A DNA stretch of 64,000 nucleotides, taken from Pseudorhizobium endolithicum. Its GTDB lineage: Bacteria; Pseudomonadota; Alphaproteobacteria; Rhizobiales; Rhizobiaceae. The notes under the pieces are model-generated. The model was not told the origin of the DNA. It was given only the letters and a program-made list of their open reading frames with translations, and did not search any database. The position numbers were made by a program, and so were the translations under genes. Below, piece by piece: positions 614 to 4,314 of this stretch; the first letter of the stretch is position 1; every line of letters begins with the position of its first letter. Where the stretch lies: the NCBI RefSeq assembly GCF_902153245.2, contig NZ_CABFWF030000010.1, positions 140,560-204,559 on the forward strand. The letters run 5' to 3'.

Positions 614-1105
614 ATGAATGTCCTGACGATCGAAGAGCTCGCCGCCCTGCTTCAGCCGGGCCAGGCCGTAGCCGGTCTGGATCTGGGGACGAAGACGATC
701 GGCCTTGCGATGTCGGACCTCGGCCGGCGCTTCGCCTCGCCCCGCCCGGTGATCAAGCGCGTGAAGTTCACGAAGGATGCCGACATCCTGCTCGACTTCG
801 CCGCGAGGGAGAAGGTCGCGGCCTTCATCATCGGGTTGCCGATGAACATGGACGGGTCCGCCGGTCCCCGTGTCCAGGCGACGCGGGCCTTCGTCCGTTC
901 AATGGGAGAAAAGACTGCCCTTCCCTTCGTCTTCTGGGACGAGCGCCTGTCGACGGTGGCGGCGGAGCGCGCATTACTGGAAATGGATGTCTCCCGCGCC
1001 AAACGAGCCGAGCGGATCGATTCGGCCGCGGCGAGCTTCATCCTTCAGGGCGCTCTCGACAGGCTCTCTTCGCTCGCCGCGAGCTCGCACGACCGCGCCT
1101 CCTGA
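614..1105 (+). CDS. ruvX: Putative pre-16S rRNA nuclease / Holliday junction resolvase-like protein RuvX (YqgF)
   Basis: This is a YqgF-family RNase H-fold nuclease of 163 residues, a normal length. The family is implicated in maturing the 5' end of 16S rRNA, and the older name is putative Holliday junction resolvase. The first acidic motif [15 protein letters not shown] is at residues 21-35, [14 protein letters not shown] lies near residue 80, [13 protein letters not shown] near residue 118, and the C-terminal [10 protein letters not shown] supplies the last acidic residue. The ATG at 614 follows GGAG about 10 bases upstream; an in-frame extension upstream has no family resemblance and was left out. 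The 3' end overlaps the convergent small membrane gene by 61 bp. Confidence 0.9.
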
Positions 1106-1374
1106 CGACGTTGCCACCATGCCGCGATGGCCTTGCGGCGCCTGAAAGCGACGATGGCGAAGAGAATCAGGCTGTCGACGACGATCGCGCGGGCCACGAG
1201 CGGCGGGAGGTCGTCTGCGGGGATCCCCAGGATCCCGCTGTAGATCTGGAAGACCAGATCATGAGTCTCGCGGGTCAGCATGAAGAACCCGAAGCTTAGA
1301 TCATAATAGGAGAGGCCGTACCAGCTTCCCAGCAGCAGGATAGGACCGCCCCACAAAATCAGGAACCACTTCAT
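1045..1374 (-). CDS. Small membrane protein, DUF6105-like
   Basis: This is a 109-residue protein of unknown function starting [16 protein letters not shown] first membrane segment covers residues 3-23. The middle contains [10 protein letters not shown] and a polar amphipathic stretch, and a second membrane segment ([18 protein letters not shown]) lies near residues 61-78. A basic tail ends the protein. The pattern resembles rhizobial proteins annotated DUF6105, from memory of the family and not from a search. The ATG at 1374 has a strong Shine-Dalgarno, GGAAGGAGG, 5 bases upstream. The start overlaps the stop of a 42-codon ORF in an ATGA arrangement, which suggests translational coupling. Its 3' end lies antisense to the last 61 bp of ruvX. 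Confidence 0.7.
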
Positions 1375-1499
1375 GCGGTCCTCCTTCCAGACTGGACAAA
1401 TCGAACCTCGATCGTCGCCAGCCACCGCAGAAGAGCCATGAGGCTCAAAACCAGTGCGGGAATGGCGATATCCAGTGCCAGAACCGCGAAAAACACCAT
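1371..1499 (-). CDS. Possible small membrane peptide coupled to the DUF6105-like gene
   Basis: This is a 42-codon ORF (MVFFAVLALDIAIPALVL, then a basic C-terminal part) whose stop TGA overlaps the ATG of the downstream membrane-protein gene. Residues 1-24 would form one membrane helix. The stop-start overlap and the placement of the next gene's Shine-Dalgarno inside this ORF are typical of real operons. No good Shine-Dalgarno precedes its ATG, though, and an upstream TTG (5 codons earlier) could be used instead. It is included as plausible, not established. Confidence 0.35.
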   Translation of the reverse strand: MVFFAVLALDIAIPALVLSLMALLRWLATIEVRFVQSGRRTA

Positions 1500-1566
1500 C
1501 GTGCTGATCAGCAATGCAGGACCGGCAGCGGTCGTTCCGTGGGCCAATGGCTCAATCCGTCCATGG

Positions 1567-1582
1567 TTAACACAAGGTTAAC
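1567..1582. promoter_or_regulatory. Full-length CtrA-type box TTAA-N7-TTAAC
   Basis: The sequence TTAA-CACAAGG-TTAAC matches the CtrA consensus TTAA-N7-TTAAC exactly. Read on the other strand it is TTAA-CCTTGTG-TTAAC, so it would fit a promoter in either direction. A further lone GGTTAAC lies at 1630-1636. The box is 68 bp upstream of the small ORF starting at 1499 (minus) and 146 bp upstream of the TetR start at 1728 (plus). CtrA control is an inference from the motif. Confidence 0.45.
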
Positions 1583-1708
1583 CGAACTTAGGCGGATCGC
1601 CGTCCTGCGCAACGCAAACCGCCTTCTATGGTTAACAGCGAGCTTGAGGCTGTGGACAAGAGGCTCGCGCGACACTCGACCAAAGATACAGGTTGACCGA
1701 ACAATTCA

Positions 1709-1727: not shown

Positions 1728-2417
1728 ATGCGATCGAGCGCCAAAGAGACCCTTATCAAGAACGCGGCCGCCCTGTTCTCCCGCAGCGGCTACAATGCCG
1801 TCTCGCTTCGGGACGTGGCGAAGGCTTCCGGCGTGAACGTCGGCAGCCTCACCTACCATTTCGGCTCGAAGGCCAATCTGCTGCGGGAGATCTATGCCCG
1901 CCACACGCTGCCCATGAACGCGCGGCGCCTTGAGCTTCTGGGGGAAGCCCGCCGGATCAGCGATCCGGACGAGCGGCTGATGGCGATTCTCAGGGCCTAT
2001 GTGGTTCCGGCCTTCGTATCGTCCTCCGACGGTGACGGCGGAGGGGCAGAGTTCACCCGCATGCGCGCGGTCCTGTCGGCGGAAGGAAATCCGGATGCCA
2101 AGGCCATCATTGCCGACGCCTTCGACGAGACCAGCCGGACCTTCATCAAGGCGCTGGCGGAATGCGTGCCGGGAGCAGCCCCCGAAAGCCTCGTCTGGCG
2201 CAGCCAGTTCCTGCTCGGCGGGCTCTACTACGCCCTCATCAATCCCGAGCGCATCACCCGCCTCTCCAACGGCACCGTGGACGGCAACAACCGCGATGAA
2301 GCCGTGAAGCAACTGGTCGAGGCGACGTATGCCAGCTTCAAGAGCCTCTCGGGCACAGCCCCAGCCGTGACCGAGGAGCCGGCGAAGGAAAATTCCATCA
2401 GAAAAGCGAGCATGTGA
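1728..2417 (+). CDS. TetR/AcrR-family transcriptional regulator
   Basis: This is a 229-residue DNA-binding repressor of the TetR family. The N-terminal helix-turn-helix is clear: AALFSRSGYNAVSLRDVAKA followed by SGVNVGSLTYHFGSKANLL, about residues 13-52. The long C-terminal ligand domain is not informative about the effector. The ATG at 1728 was chosen because the family domain starts there (MRSSAKETLIKNAA). No Shine-Dalgarno is visible; instead a palindrome lies immediately upstream, so a leaderless or weakly translated mRNA is possible. The stop codon abuts the ATG of the lactonase-like hydrolase, so the two genes form an operon and the regulator probably controls that hydrolase and the binding protein after it. 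Confidence 0.85.
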   Translation: MRSSAKETLIKNAAALFSRSGYNAVSLRDVAKASGVNVGSLTYHFGSKANLLREIYARHTLPMNARRLELLGEARRISDPDERLMAILRAYVVPAFVSSSDGDGGGAEFTRMRAVLSAEGNPDAKAIIADAFDETSRTFIKALAECVPGAAPESLVWRSQFLLGGLYYALINPERITRLSNGTVDGNNRDEAVKQLVEATYASFKSLSGTAPAVTEEPAKENSIRKASM

Positions 2418-3281
2418 ATGACATCTGCCCCGTCCGAAAGCGGCGTGCACAAACGAAAGCCGATCTTTACCGCCCCTCCCCTGAGCTGCGACGCCCACTG
2501 CCACGTGTTCGGGCCGGGAGCCGTCTTCCCCTATGCGCCTGACCGTCGCTACACGCCGGAAGATGCGCCGAAGGAAGCCCTGGCGGCTCTTCATGACCGG
2601 CTCGGCCTGGAGCGGGCGGTTATCGTCCAGGCGAGTTGCCACGGCACCGACAACCGGGCCATGCTGGATGCGATCGCCTGGCGCCCCGACCGGTATCGCG
2701 GCGTCGCCATCGTCGACGACAGCTTTGACGAGAAGGCGCTGCAGGCCCTTGATGACGGGGGCGTGCGCGGCGTGCGGTTCAACTTCGTCAAGCATCTCGG
2801 CGGCGCGCCTGACATGGCCGTCTTCGACCGCGTGATCGACCGCATCAAGGGGCGCGGCTGGCATGTCGTTCTGCATCTCGATGCGATCGACATCGTGCCG
2901 CTTGCCGACATGATCCGCAGGCTCCCCGTTCCTTTCGTGATCGACCACATGGGTCGGGTCGACACGGCACTCGGAACGGACCAGCCGGCATTCCGGTCGC
3001 TACTGGACCTCGCCCGCCGCGAGGACTGCTGGGTCAAGGTCTGCGGCTCCGAACGCATCTCCAGCTATCCCTTCGATGCGGCCCTGCCCTTCGCGCGGGC
3101 GCTGGTGGAAGCGAGCCCGGAGCGGACCCTCTGGGGCACGGATTTTCCACATCCCAATCTCAAGGATCCGGTCGACGAAGCGGATCTTCTCGACCTGGTC
3201 ACCAAGATAGCACCGTCCGTCGAGGGACAGCGGCGCCTGCTCGTCGACAACCCGGCGCGGCTCTACGGCTTTACCACCTGA
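2418..3281 (+). CDS. 2-pyrone-4,6-dicarboxylate lactonase-like amidohydrolase
   Basis: This is a 287-residue TIM-barrel hydrolase of the amidohydrolase superfamily (COG3618 type). The sequence strongly recalls LigI, which opens 2-pyrone-4,6-dicarboxylate in the protocatechuate 4,5-cleavage (lignin-aromatics) pathway. Shared segments are DAHCHVFGPG (residues 25-34), VIVQASCHGTDNRAMLDAI, GVRGVRFNF, PFVIDHMGR and LWGTDFPHPN; the last includes the Asp used as base in LigI. The start abuts the TetR stop with no gap. No other lig/pmd genes are nearby, so the actual substrate could be another lactone or a sulfomuconolactone-type compound. Family placement is strong; the exact substrate is inferred. 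Confidence 0.75.
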   Translation: MTSAPSESGVHKRKPIFTAPPLSCDAHCHVFGPGAVFPYAPDRRYTPEDAPKEALAALHDRLGLERAVIVQASCHGTDNRAMLDAIAWRPDRYRGVAIVDDSFDEKALQALDDGGVRGVRFNFVKHLGGAPDMAVFDRVIDRIKGRGWHVVLHLDAIDIVPLADMIRRLPVPFVIDHMGRVDTALGTDQPAFRSLLDLARREDCWVKVCGSERISSYPFDAALPFARALVEASPERTLWGTDFPHPNLKDPVDEADLLDLVTKIAPSVEGQRRLLVDNPARLYGFTT

Positions 3282-3306
3282 ACAACATCACCTGGAGGAG
3301 GAAGAC

Positions 3307-4314
3307 ATGACAGGAAAAAACAAGCGGCCGGGACTGCTTCGGCGCACGCTTATGAAGGGGCTCGTGCCGGCCATGCTGCTGGCCACTGCGGCGCCCGTCC
3401 CCAGCTGGGCGCAGGAGGACTATCCCAGCCGCGATATCACGCTGGTACTGCCTTTCGGGCCCGGCGGCATCGCCGACATCACCTCGCGCGTGGTCGCAGA
3501 CGCGCTCGGCAAGAAGCTCGGCAAGCAGATCATCATCATGAACCAGCCCGGCGCCGCCGGCTCCGTCGCCGCAAGGGCTGCGTTGAACGCGCCGGCCGAT
3601 GGCTACACGCTTGCGCTTCTCTCCAACGGTACGGCCATCAGCGTTCCGCTTTTCGAGAACCTGCAGTTCGATCCTGTGAAGGATTTCGTGCCCGTCTCGA
3701 GCCTCGCCTATTTCGACTTCGTCTTCGTGGCGAAGAAGGGCGGAAAATTCTCGACACTCGCTGACGTTCTCGCAGCCGCCAAGGCGGAGCGCGGAATGCT
3801 CAATGTCGGCACGATCAATGTGGGCAGCAGCCAGAACCTCGCTGCCGAACTGTTCAAGTCCACGGCCGGGATCGACTTCACGATCGTGCCCTACAAGGCG
3901 ACACCGGATCTTCTCGTAGCTCTGCTGGGCGACGAACTCGACGTGATCGTCGACAGCCAGACGGCGCTGAAGGCAGCGCTGGAGCAGGGCCAGGCCGTCG
4001 CCCTTGCCTCCTCCGGGCCTGAGCGTTCGAAACTGCTCCCGGACCTTGCAACGGCACAGGAACAGGGTGTGGAGGGCTTCGACGTTACGTCCTGGAATGC
4101 CATCTTCGCCCCGACGGGCACGCCTCCCGAAGTGGTCGAGAAGCTGAATGCCACACTCGTGGAGGTCCTGTCAGATCCGGCGATCCAGAAGCGATTCGCG
4201 GAGCTTGGTGTCGAAGCTCGCTCCAGTACGCCGCAGGAAATCGGCGACCGGCTCGCCGCCGACATCGAGAAGTGGGGCGCCGTCATCGAGAAGGCGGGCA
4301 TCCCGAAGCAATAG
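3307..4314 (+). CDS. Tripartite tricarboxylate transporter (Bug/TctC) substrate-binding protein
   Basis: This is a periplasmic binding protein of 335 residues from the Bug/TctC family, which captures carboxylic acids for TctAB permeases or for signalling. The signal peptide is about 35 residues, with a twin-arginine-like RRTLMKG before the hydrophobic core and cleavage expected after PVPSWA. The family pattern YPSRDITLVLPFGPGGIADIT starts the mature protein, followed by GKQIIIMNQPGAAGSVA and DGYTLAL. The Shine-Dalgarno GGAGGAGGAAG is strong. The gene lies 25 bp after the lactonase in the same direction. No TctA or TctB permease gene is present in the window, so it is an orphan binding protein. 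Confidence 0.88.
   Translation: MTGKNKRPGLLRRTLMKGLVPAMLLATAAPVPSWAQEDYPSRDITLVLPFGPGGIADITSRVVADALGKKLGKQIIIMNQPGAAGSVAARAALNAPADGYTLALLSNGTAISVPLFENLQFDPVKDFVPVSSLAYFDFVFVAKKGGKFSTLADVLAAAKAERGMLNVGTINVGSSQNLAAELFKSTAGIDFTIVPYKATPDLLVALLGDELDVIVDSQTALKAALEQGQAVALASSGPERSKLLPDLATAQEQGVEGFDVTSWNAIFAPTGTPPEVVEKLNATLVEVLSDPAIQKRFAELGVEARSSTPQEIGDRLAADIEKWGAVIEKAGIPKQ

Follow-up and report, generated by a model that had tools for sequence, protein, structure and literature searches.

We studied a CtrA-type box in a 64,000-nucleotide stretch of the Pseudorhizobium endolithicum genome (the window, taken at its full length) and the corresponding region in its relatives. The comparison suggests that the box is, quite probably, one site of a compact promoter controlled by CtrA, and probably influenced by DnaA, that would serve an operon made of a small ORF and a DUF6105 membrane protein gene. 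On the transcript strand the putative elements follow the order DnaA-like site, distal CtrA-type element, -35, -10 and, in this lineage, the full box over the predicted start.

Conserved elements of the promoter region

The full box, TTAACACAAGGTTAAC, reads TTAA-N7-TTAAC at 1567-1582 in the positive strand and has a second match at 1566-1581 in the negative strand, so that, read both ways, it spans 1566..1582 and covers the predicted start of transcription. This exact two-way form, reported in a first-pass annotation of the window, was corroborated: it was the sole place in the 64 kb with the pattern on both strands, and 100 dinucleotide shuffles gave a mean of 0.02 such places per window (largest 1). 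A scan of all 20 contigs of the genome (4.19 Mb) with the stricter pattern TTAAC-N6-TTAAC returned nine strand-wise matches at six places, and one for the reversed-pattern control; the box is thus uncommon, not unique, and its weight comes from conservation and not from rarity. Another TTAAC-N6-TTAAC place, at about 1501-1516 of locus L008, is located between ORFs that, read by eye, are RuvC-like and methyl-accepting-protein-like.

The DUF6105 gene was present in 36/36 genomes of the genus, the studied genome counted, and TTAA-N7-TTAA was found 199-221 bp upstream of its start in 36/36 (35/36 in a first pass, plus L207, the full-length locus that replaced L042, a too-short locus of the same genome; L207 is counted in the far set though it is same-genus). 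Absence of the box from orthologous upstream regions, named in the annotation as the finding that would speak against it, was looked for and was not seen in the genus. In the relatives' loci, duplicates included, TTAA-N7-TTAA(C) occurred in 105 of 142. Family-wide, the full box was present in 67 of the 143 scored loci (see below), with 3/2860 in shuffles, and it was rare in the far set (4/56 loci, one of the four being same-genus). The named loci of Neorhizobium, Pseudorhizobium and Agrobacterium had the full box; those of Shinella, Ensifer and Peteryoungia were without it and mostly presented a distal TTAA. The conservation upstream of DUF6105 homologues, put forward in the annotation as a check, holds throughout the genus; in the family the box is limited to some lineages.

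The distal element is a 27-bp sequence, TTAACCATAGAAGGCGGTTTGCGTTGC, at 1609..1635 in the negative strand, composed of a CtrA-type half site TTAACC, then GGTTTGC and then the TTGC of the -35. In this genome it presents the half site only; the consensus typical of distant genomes is TTAACCTTAACAAATGGTTTACGTTGC. We scored the element as TTAACCNTNANNNNNGGTTTNCGTTGC, with 19 fixed letters and a threshold of at least 15, in a non-redundant set of 152 loci, obtained from 198 by a 95% identity cut on the final 250 bp. The window scored 18/19, and 143/152 loci reached the threshold (92/97 near and 51/55 far); the nine loci that score 11-14 of 19 are omitted from the counts on 143 loci. The 760 shuffles scored at most 14/19.

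With 80 named loci, 27 further family loci (L045-L071) and 56 fetched loci at hand, an alignment of 100 upstream regions (L009-L151) had its top conservation around this second half site and not at the full box: TTAACC was present in 100/100, the two G of GG in 87% and 77%, TTT in 93-99% and TTGC in 99-100%. Among the scored loci, TTAACC was found in 139/143 and the TTT of GGTTT was nearly invariant. On a tree of the DUF6105 protein with 125 taxa (those of the 143 loci with a complete DUF6105 reading) the TTAACC, T7 and TTG columns took 0-2 parsimony steps each, whereas the median over 47 flank columns was 57 and none of these took fewer than 26, step counts that are inflated because the flanks were compared without gaps. 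Judged from these distributions, the distal element, apparently ancestral, is older than the full box, which is not the oldest part of the promoter. The second GGTTAAC mentioned in the annotation does lie where it was placed, at 1630-1636, starting 48 bases past the end of the box; its part in the promoter needs changing, to that of a more ancient element with conserved -35 and -10 adjoining.

A chance match in AT-richer intergenic DNA seems extremely improbable. TTAA is a short word and the stricter pattern has its six genomic places, but the presence of the box in every same-genus genome, the 0-2 steps of the distal element against the flank median and the shuffles all stand against it; we rejected a chance origin on the 36/36 conservation and the shuffles.

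The distal pattern, searched with up to two mismatches in 12 hand-picked genomes, gave 14 occurrences, 12 of which were the DUF6105 promoter, one per genome. With just two of the 14 places outside that promoter, the pattern was rejected as a general regulon element. A second copy with two mismatches, away from DUF6105 at G162:C1:2722560-2722586 (L224), is a possible second target.

A TTAA at positions 6-9 of the distal element was present in 73/143 loci, and it was nearly exclusive with the full box: 70 loci had the distal TTAA only, 64 the full box only, three had both and six neither. When the distal pair was counted at 7 or more of the 8 letters of TTAA-N7-TTWA, the numbers were 70, 62, 5 and 6, respectively. 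On the tree the two characters changed nine and seven times, and 11 times combined; hence few events, about 7-9, lie behind the near-exclusive pattern, not 143 independent ones. A single protein acting at both places would be expected to give such a distribution, which suggests that the distal TTAA and the full box would share a reader. The earlier picture of the box stood as to its CtrA form; it has to be amended in that the box is lineage-limited and alternates with the distal TTAA.

Predicted promoter core and DnaA-like site

Both hexamers of the core were predicted in the negative strand: a -35 TTGCGC at 1607..1612 and, after a 16-nt spacer, a -10 TAAGTT at 1585..1590, whose second and sixth letters are A and T. 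The TTG of the -35 was present in 143/143 scored loci and the following C in 137/143. The -10 A and T with a 16- or 17-nt spacer were found in 138/143, i.e., 67/67 loci with the full box and 71/76 of the others; a further conserved -10 was not seen after the full box. Transcription of the operon is accordingly predicted to run leftward from a start near 1578, inside the full box. Relative to this predicted start, the distal pair would be positioned near -52/-41 and the full box at about -4 to +13.

The DnaA box has the consensus TTATCCACA. A DnaA-box-like sequence, TTGTCCACA, is located at 1651..1659 in the negative strand, and its first base lies 24 nt before that of the distal element. Sites with at most one mismatch to the consensus were called within 60 bp upstream of the distal element in 142 loci (the 143 minus one for a short flank). 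They were found in 52/91 near loci (against a mean of 0.5 and a maximum of 2 in 20 rounds of shuffling) and in 12/51 far loci (mean of 0.1 and maximum of 1 in the shuffles), and a 60-bp downstream control gave 0 near and 0 far. The strand was identical in 64/64, and 51/64 started 24-25 nt before the element; the other 78/142 loci, which include most far loci, were without a DnaA-like site. The annotation was right in reading a CtrA-form box here and overlooked the DnaA-box-like site.

The fixed strand and mostly fixed spacing of this site, together with about one copy of the cluster per genome, would also suit a conserved DNA site with a role in replication, either origin-like or for DnaA/CtrA titration, that is not a promoter. 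This we consider quite improbable, because a conserved -35 and -10 follow the element, the element precedes the DUF6105 operon although the intervening genes differ, and there is one DnaA-like site only. The location of the S. meliloti origin at hemE counts against it as well.

CtrA and other candidate readers of the sites

For the promoter reading a CtrA protein is at hand: the genome has an orthologue (L232; NF045991, 424.5 bits vs. a cut-off of 350). Much CtrA output in Rhizobiales is unnamed: the S. meliloti CtrA study describes 198 ChIP peaks and counts 54 genes as direct targets, of which 19 are hypothetical. It describes sciP as a direct target and ccrM as CtrA-bound (PMC4433202). A start-site study of S. 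meliloti gives 175 predicted CtrA motifs (PMC3616915). Five gene-name stems, some of them from genes beside the S. meliloti DUF6105 orthologue, had 0 occurrences in the main text of the S. meliloti CtrA paper.

As a positive control, the sciP upstream regions presented TTAG-N7-TTAA, with the consensus spacer TCAAATG, in 25/28 loci selected at the family cut-off (18/18 same-genus loci and 7/10 from other families); the three misses, L241, L266 and L267, had no TTAA at -72 to -50. Located 54-68 bp upstream of the start in L240-L265, the sciP pair is useful as a reference for CtrA sites across the order. In form it is close to TTAA-CAAATGG-TTTA of the DUF6105 element: both are deeply conserved CtrA-type pairs in Rhizobiales with a similar AAATG spacer, whereas the sciP promoter lacks the TTAACC extension, has another placement and serves a known cell-cycle regulator. 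For ccrM, no TTAA was found within 350 bp upstream in 12/17 usable same-genus loci and no consistent pattern emerged, with start codons picked mechanically and 2/30 loci unusable. Around ctrA itself, up to a distance of 700 bp, this genome had seven single TTAA and no TTAA-N6/7-TTAA. TTAA pairs are therefore an imperfect marker of CtrA targets.

For Caulobacter promoters, activation is described for CtrA sites near the -35 and repression for half sites over the -10; the activated promoters (full and half-activator classes) have a TTAA-N7-TTAA pair or a TTAA half site near the -35, as here, with the 5' end of the CtrA site near -39 (PMC4287350). Compared with them, the full DUF6105 pair starts near -52, and the promoter has a separate conserved TTGC -35 and an extra TTAACC and GG. 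The half-repressor promoters and ctrA P1 resemble the DUF6105 promoter in a CtrA-type site over the start or -10 and in frequent DnaA or GcrA sites (14/24 half-repressor promoters also hold one or the other; PMC4287350). They differ from the DUF6105 promoter, which has a full pair over the predicted start, alternating with an upstream TTAA. The Caulobacter placement rule, if applied here, would predict activation from the distal element and, from the full box, repression or the shaping of a pulse.

We infer from sequence comparison that CtrA and DnaA are the binders, with a sign and timing as follows. CtrA~P on the distal element, directly upstream of a weak -35, would help RNA polymerase to start the operon, whose expression would so be coupled with the CtrA phase of the cycle, and DnaA about 24 nt further up would adjust the start around replication initiation. 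In lineages of the Neorhizobium and Agrobacterium type the full CtrA pair would have shifted to the transcription start, and CtrA bound there would be expected to repress or to shape a pulse. A bolder proposal is that a composite DnaA-CtrA promoter at one locus, almost constant throughout one family, runs an envelope protein pair and that reciprocal relocation of the full CtrA pair, from upstream to the start site or back, altered the sign or phase of control by CtrA between lineages; this is possible, and we hold it tentatively. If true, it would be a natural rewiring of cell-cycle output by site turnover, with the operon kept in the circuit. Since site position alternates naturally between lineages, the relation of CtrA placement to the sign of control can be put to the test.

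Several findings count against the CtrA reading: the distal pair starts near -52 and not near -39 as in a Caulobacter activated promoter, the distal element of this genome holds just a half site, and TTAACC with GGTTT can also be read as an inverted repeat with an N9 spacer, unexplained by direct-repeat CtrA binding. A regulator other than CtrA might thus read TTAACC-N9-GGTTTR, the likeness to CtrA sites being partial. The near invariance of TTAACC (139/143) and TTT, which extends to lineages that lack the TTAA at positions 6-9, is in line with such a regulator, as is an element nearly unique per genome, unlike what is expected for the box of a master regulator. We regard this as unlikely, because the full box, which replaces the distal TTAA, is a direct repeat TTAA-N7-TTAACCAT without an inverted repeat and the sciP pair has a similar form. 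Among named regulators, CenR of R. sphaeroides is described as reading TGA-N8-TGA, a motif that differs from the ones found here, and the S. meliloti motif may not be the same; MucR, described as co-binding CtrA promoters in Caulobacter (PMC4287350), is a possible reader.

The small-ORF/DUF6105 operon and its neighbours

The gene layout given in the annotation, a 42-codon ORF plus a DUF6105-like protein with a TetR gene across the box, was confirmed. The DUF6105 gene, at 1045..1374 in the negative strand, encodes a membrane protein of 109 aa with a full-length match to PF19600 (184.5 bits vs. a cut-off of 27; E 6.4e-55). The small membrane protein gene, at 1371..1499 in the negative strand, has 42 codons from ATG (58 if translation begins further upstream, at the TTG at 1547) and overlaps the DUF6105 gene by ATGA. 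The TetR gene, at 1728..2417 in the positive strand, is the rightward neighbour of the box.

In the window the TetR start follows the box by 145 bp, and the box could on this account control the divergent TetR/amidohydrolase/TctC-like operon. We looked for the gene nearest to DUF6105 beyond the box in the 80 named loci with six reference gene families, so that other genes may stand between. The nearest recognised gene pointed toward the box in 57/80 (39 a second TetR, 12 acyl-CoA-dehydrogenase-like and 6 globin-like, the last two names being our reading). In the remaining 23 it was a divergent AEC-type transporter, again by our reading, in 20, the TetR of the window in two, and none in one. 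With the TetR of the window in 2/80 relatives and the element kept where the neighbour faces it, control of the TetR operon is very improbable, and the box as TetR promoter or operator was rejected on neighbour orientation. The orientation of the neighbours makes it likely that the box belongs to the small-ORF/DUF6105 operon, which supports the small membrane gene pair that the annotation had proposed as its target. Beside the promoter, at 1728-4314, stands a block of TetR, amidohydrolase (PF04909) and a gene read as a TctC-like receptor, for which no NCBIfam match was found; the block looks like a local insertion, since its TetR was nearest DUF6105 in just those two relatives.

The small ORF had a tblastn match in 36/36 same-genus loci. 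Between the element and DUF6105, 92/92 near loci held an ORF of 50-79 codons (longest reading from ATG, GTG or TTG), and 88/92 kept the 4-base ATGA overlap. In the 29/92 near loci alignable by motif, 52% of the pairwise differences fell at codon position 3, a pattern consistent with a real gene. In the far loci, a protein of at least 150 aa lies between the element and DUF6105 in 26/51, and no such ORF was found in 9/51. In L181, L203, L204, L167 and similar loci, the protein of at least 150 aa, within about 560-1 bp upstream of DUF6105, has several hydrophobic stretches. A Pfam search on four of these upstream proteins of distant relatives gave no family above the cut-off. The small ORF may be a reduced replacement of this larger protein.

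An alignment of 85 of 133 DUF6105 proteins had 13 invariant columns. The structure model, of modest confidence (pLDDT 75, pTM 0.39), presented helices at 2-23, 35-49, 53-78 and 80-106, two of which we read as probable membrane spans. Our literature search found no mention of DUF6105 or PF19600. DUF6105 was present in 253/297 genomes of the family and in 0/24 genomes from 24 other families, and an order-wide search with the PF19600 profile found it in 6/199 genomes, all six in the family of the window (controls 0/14). Within these searches the operon is confined to that family (taken as Rhizobiaceae in the broad GTDB sense, judging by the named relatives). A membrane operon of one family behind a nearly unchanged promoter element makes a strong candidate for a cell-cycle output specific to the lineage. 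Polar growth is described for Rhizobiales (PMC8546619), and an envelope role of DUF6105 in cell-cycle-linked growth would be our guess from its regulation and family range. At the other end of the operon, ruvX (614-1105, positive strand) is convergent with DUF6105, and the 3' ends of the two genes overlap by 61 bases (1045-1105).
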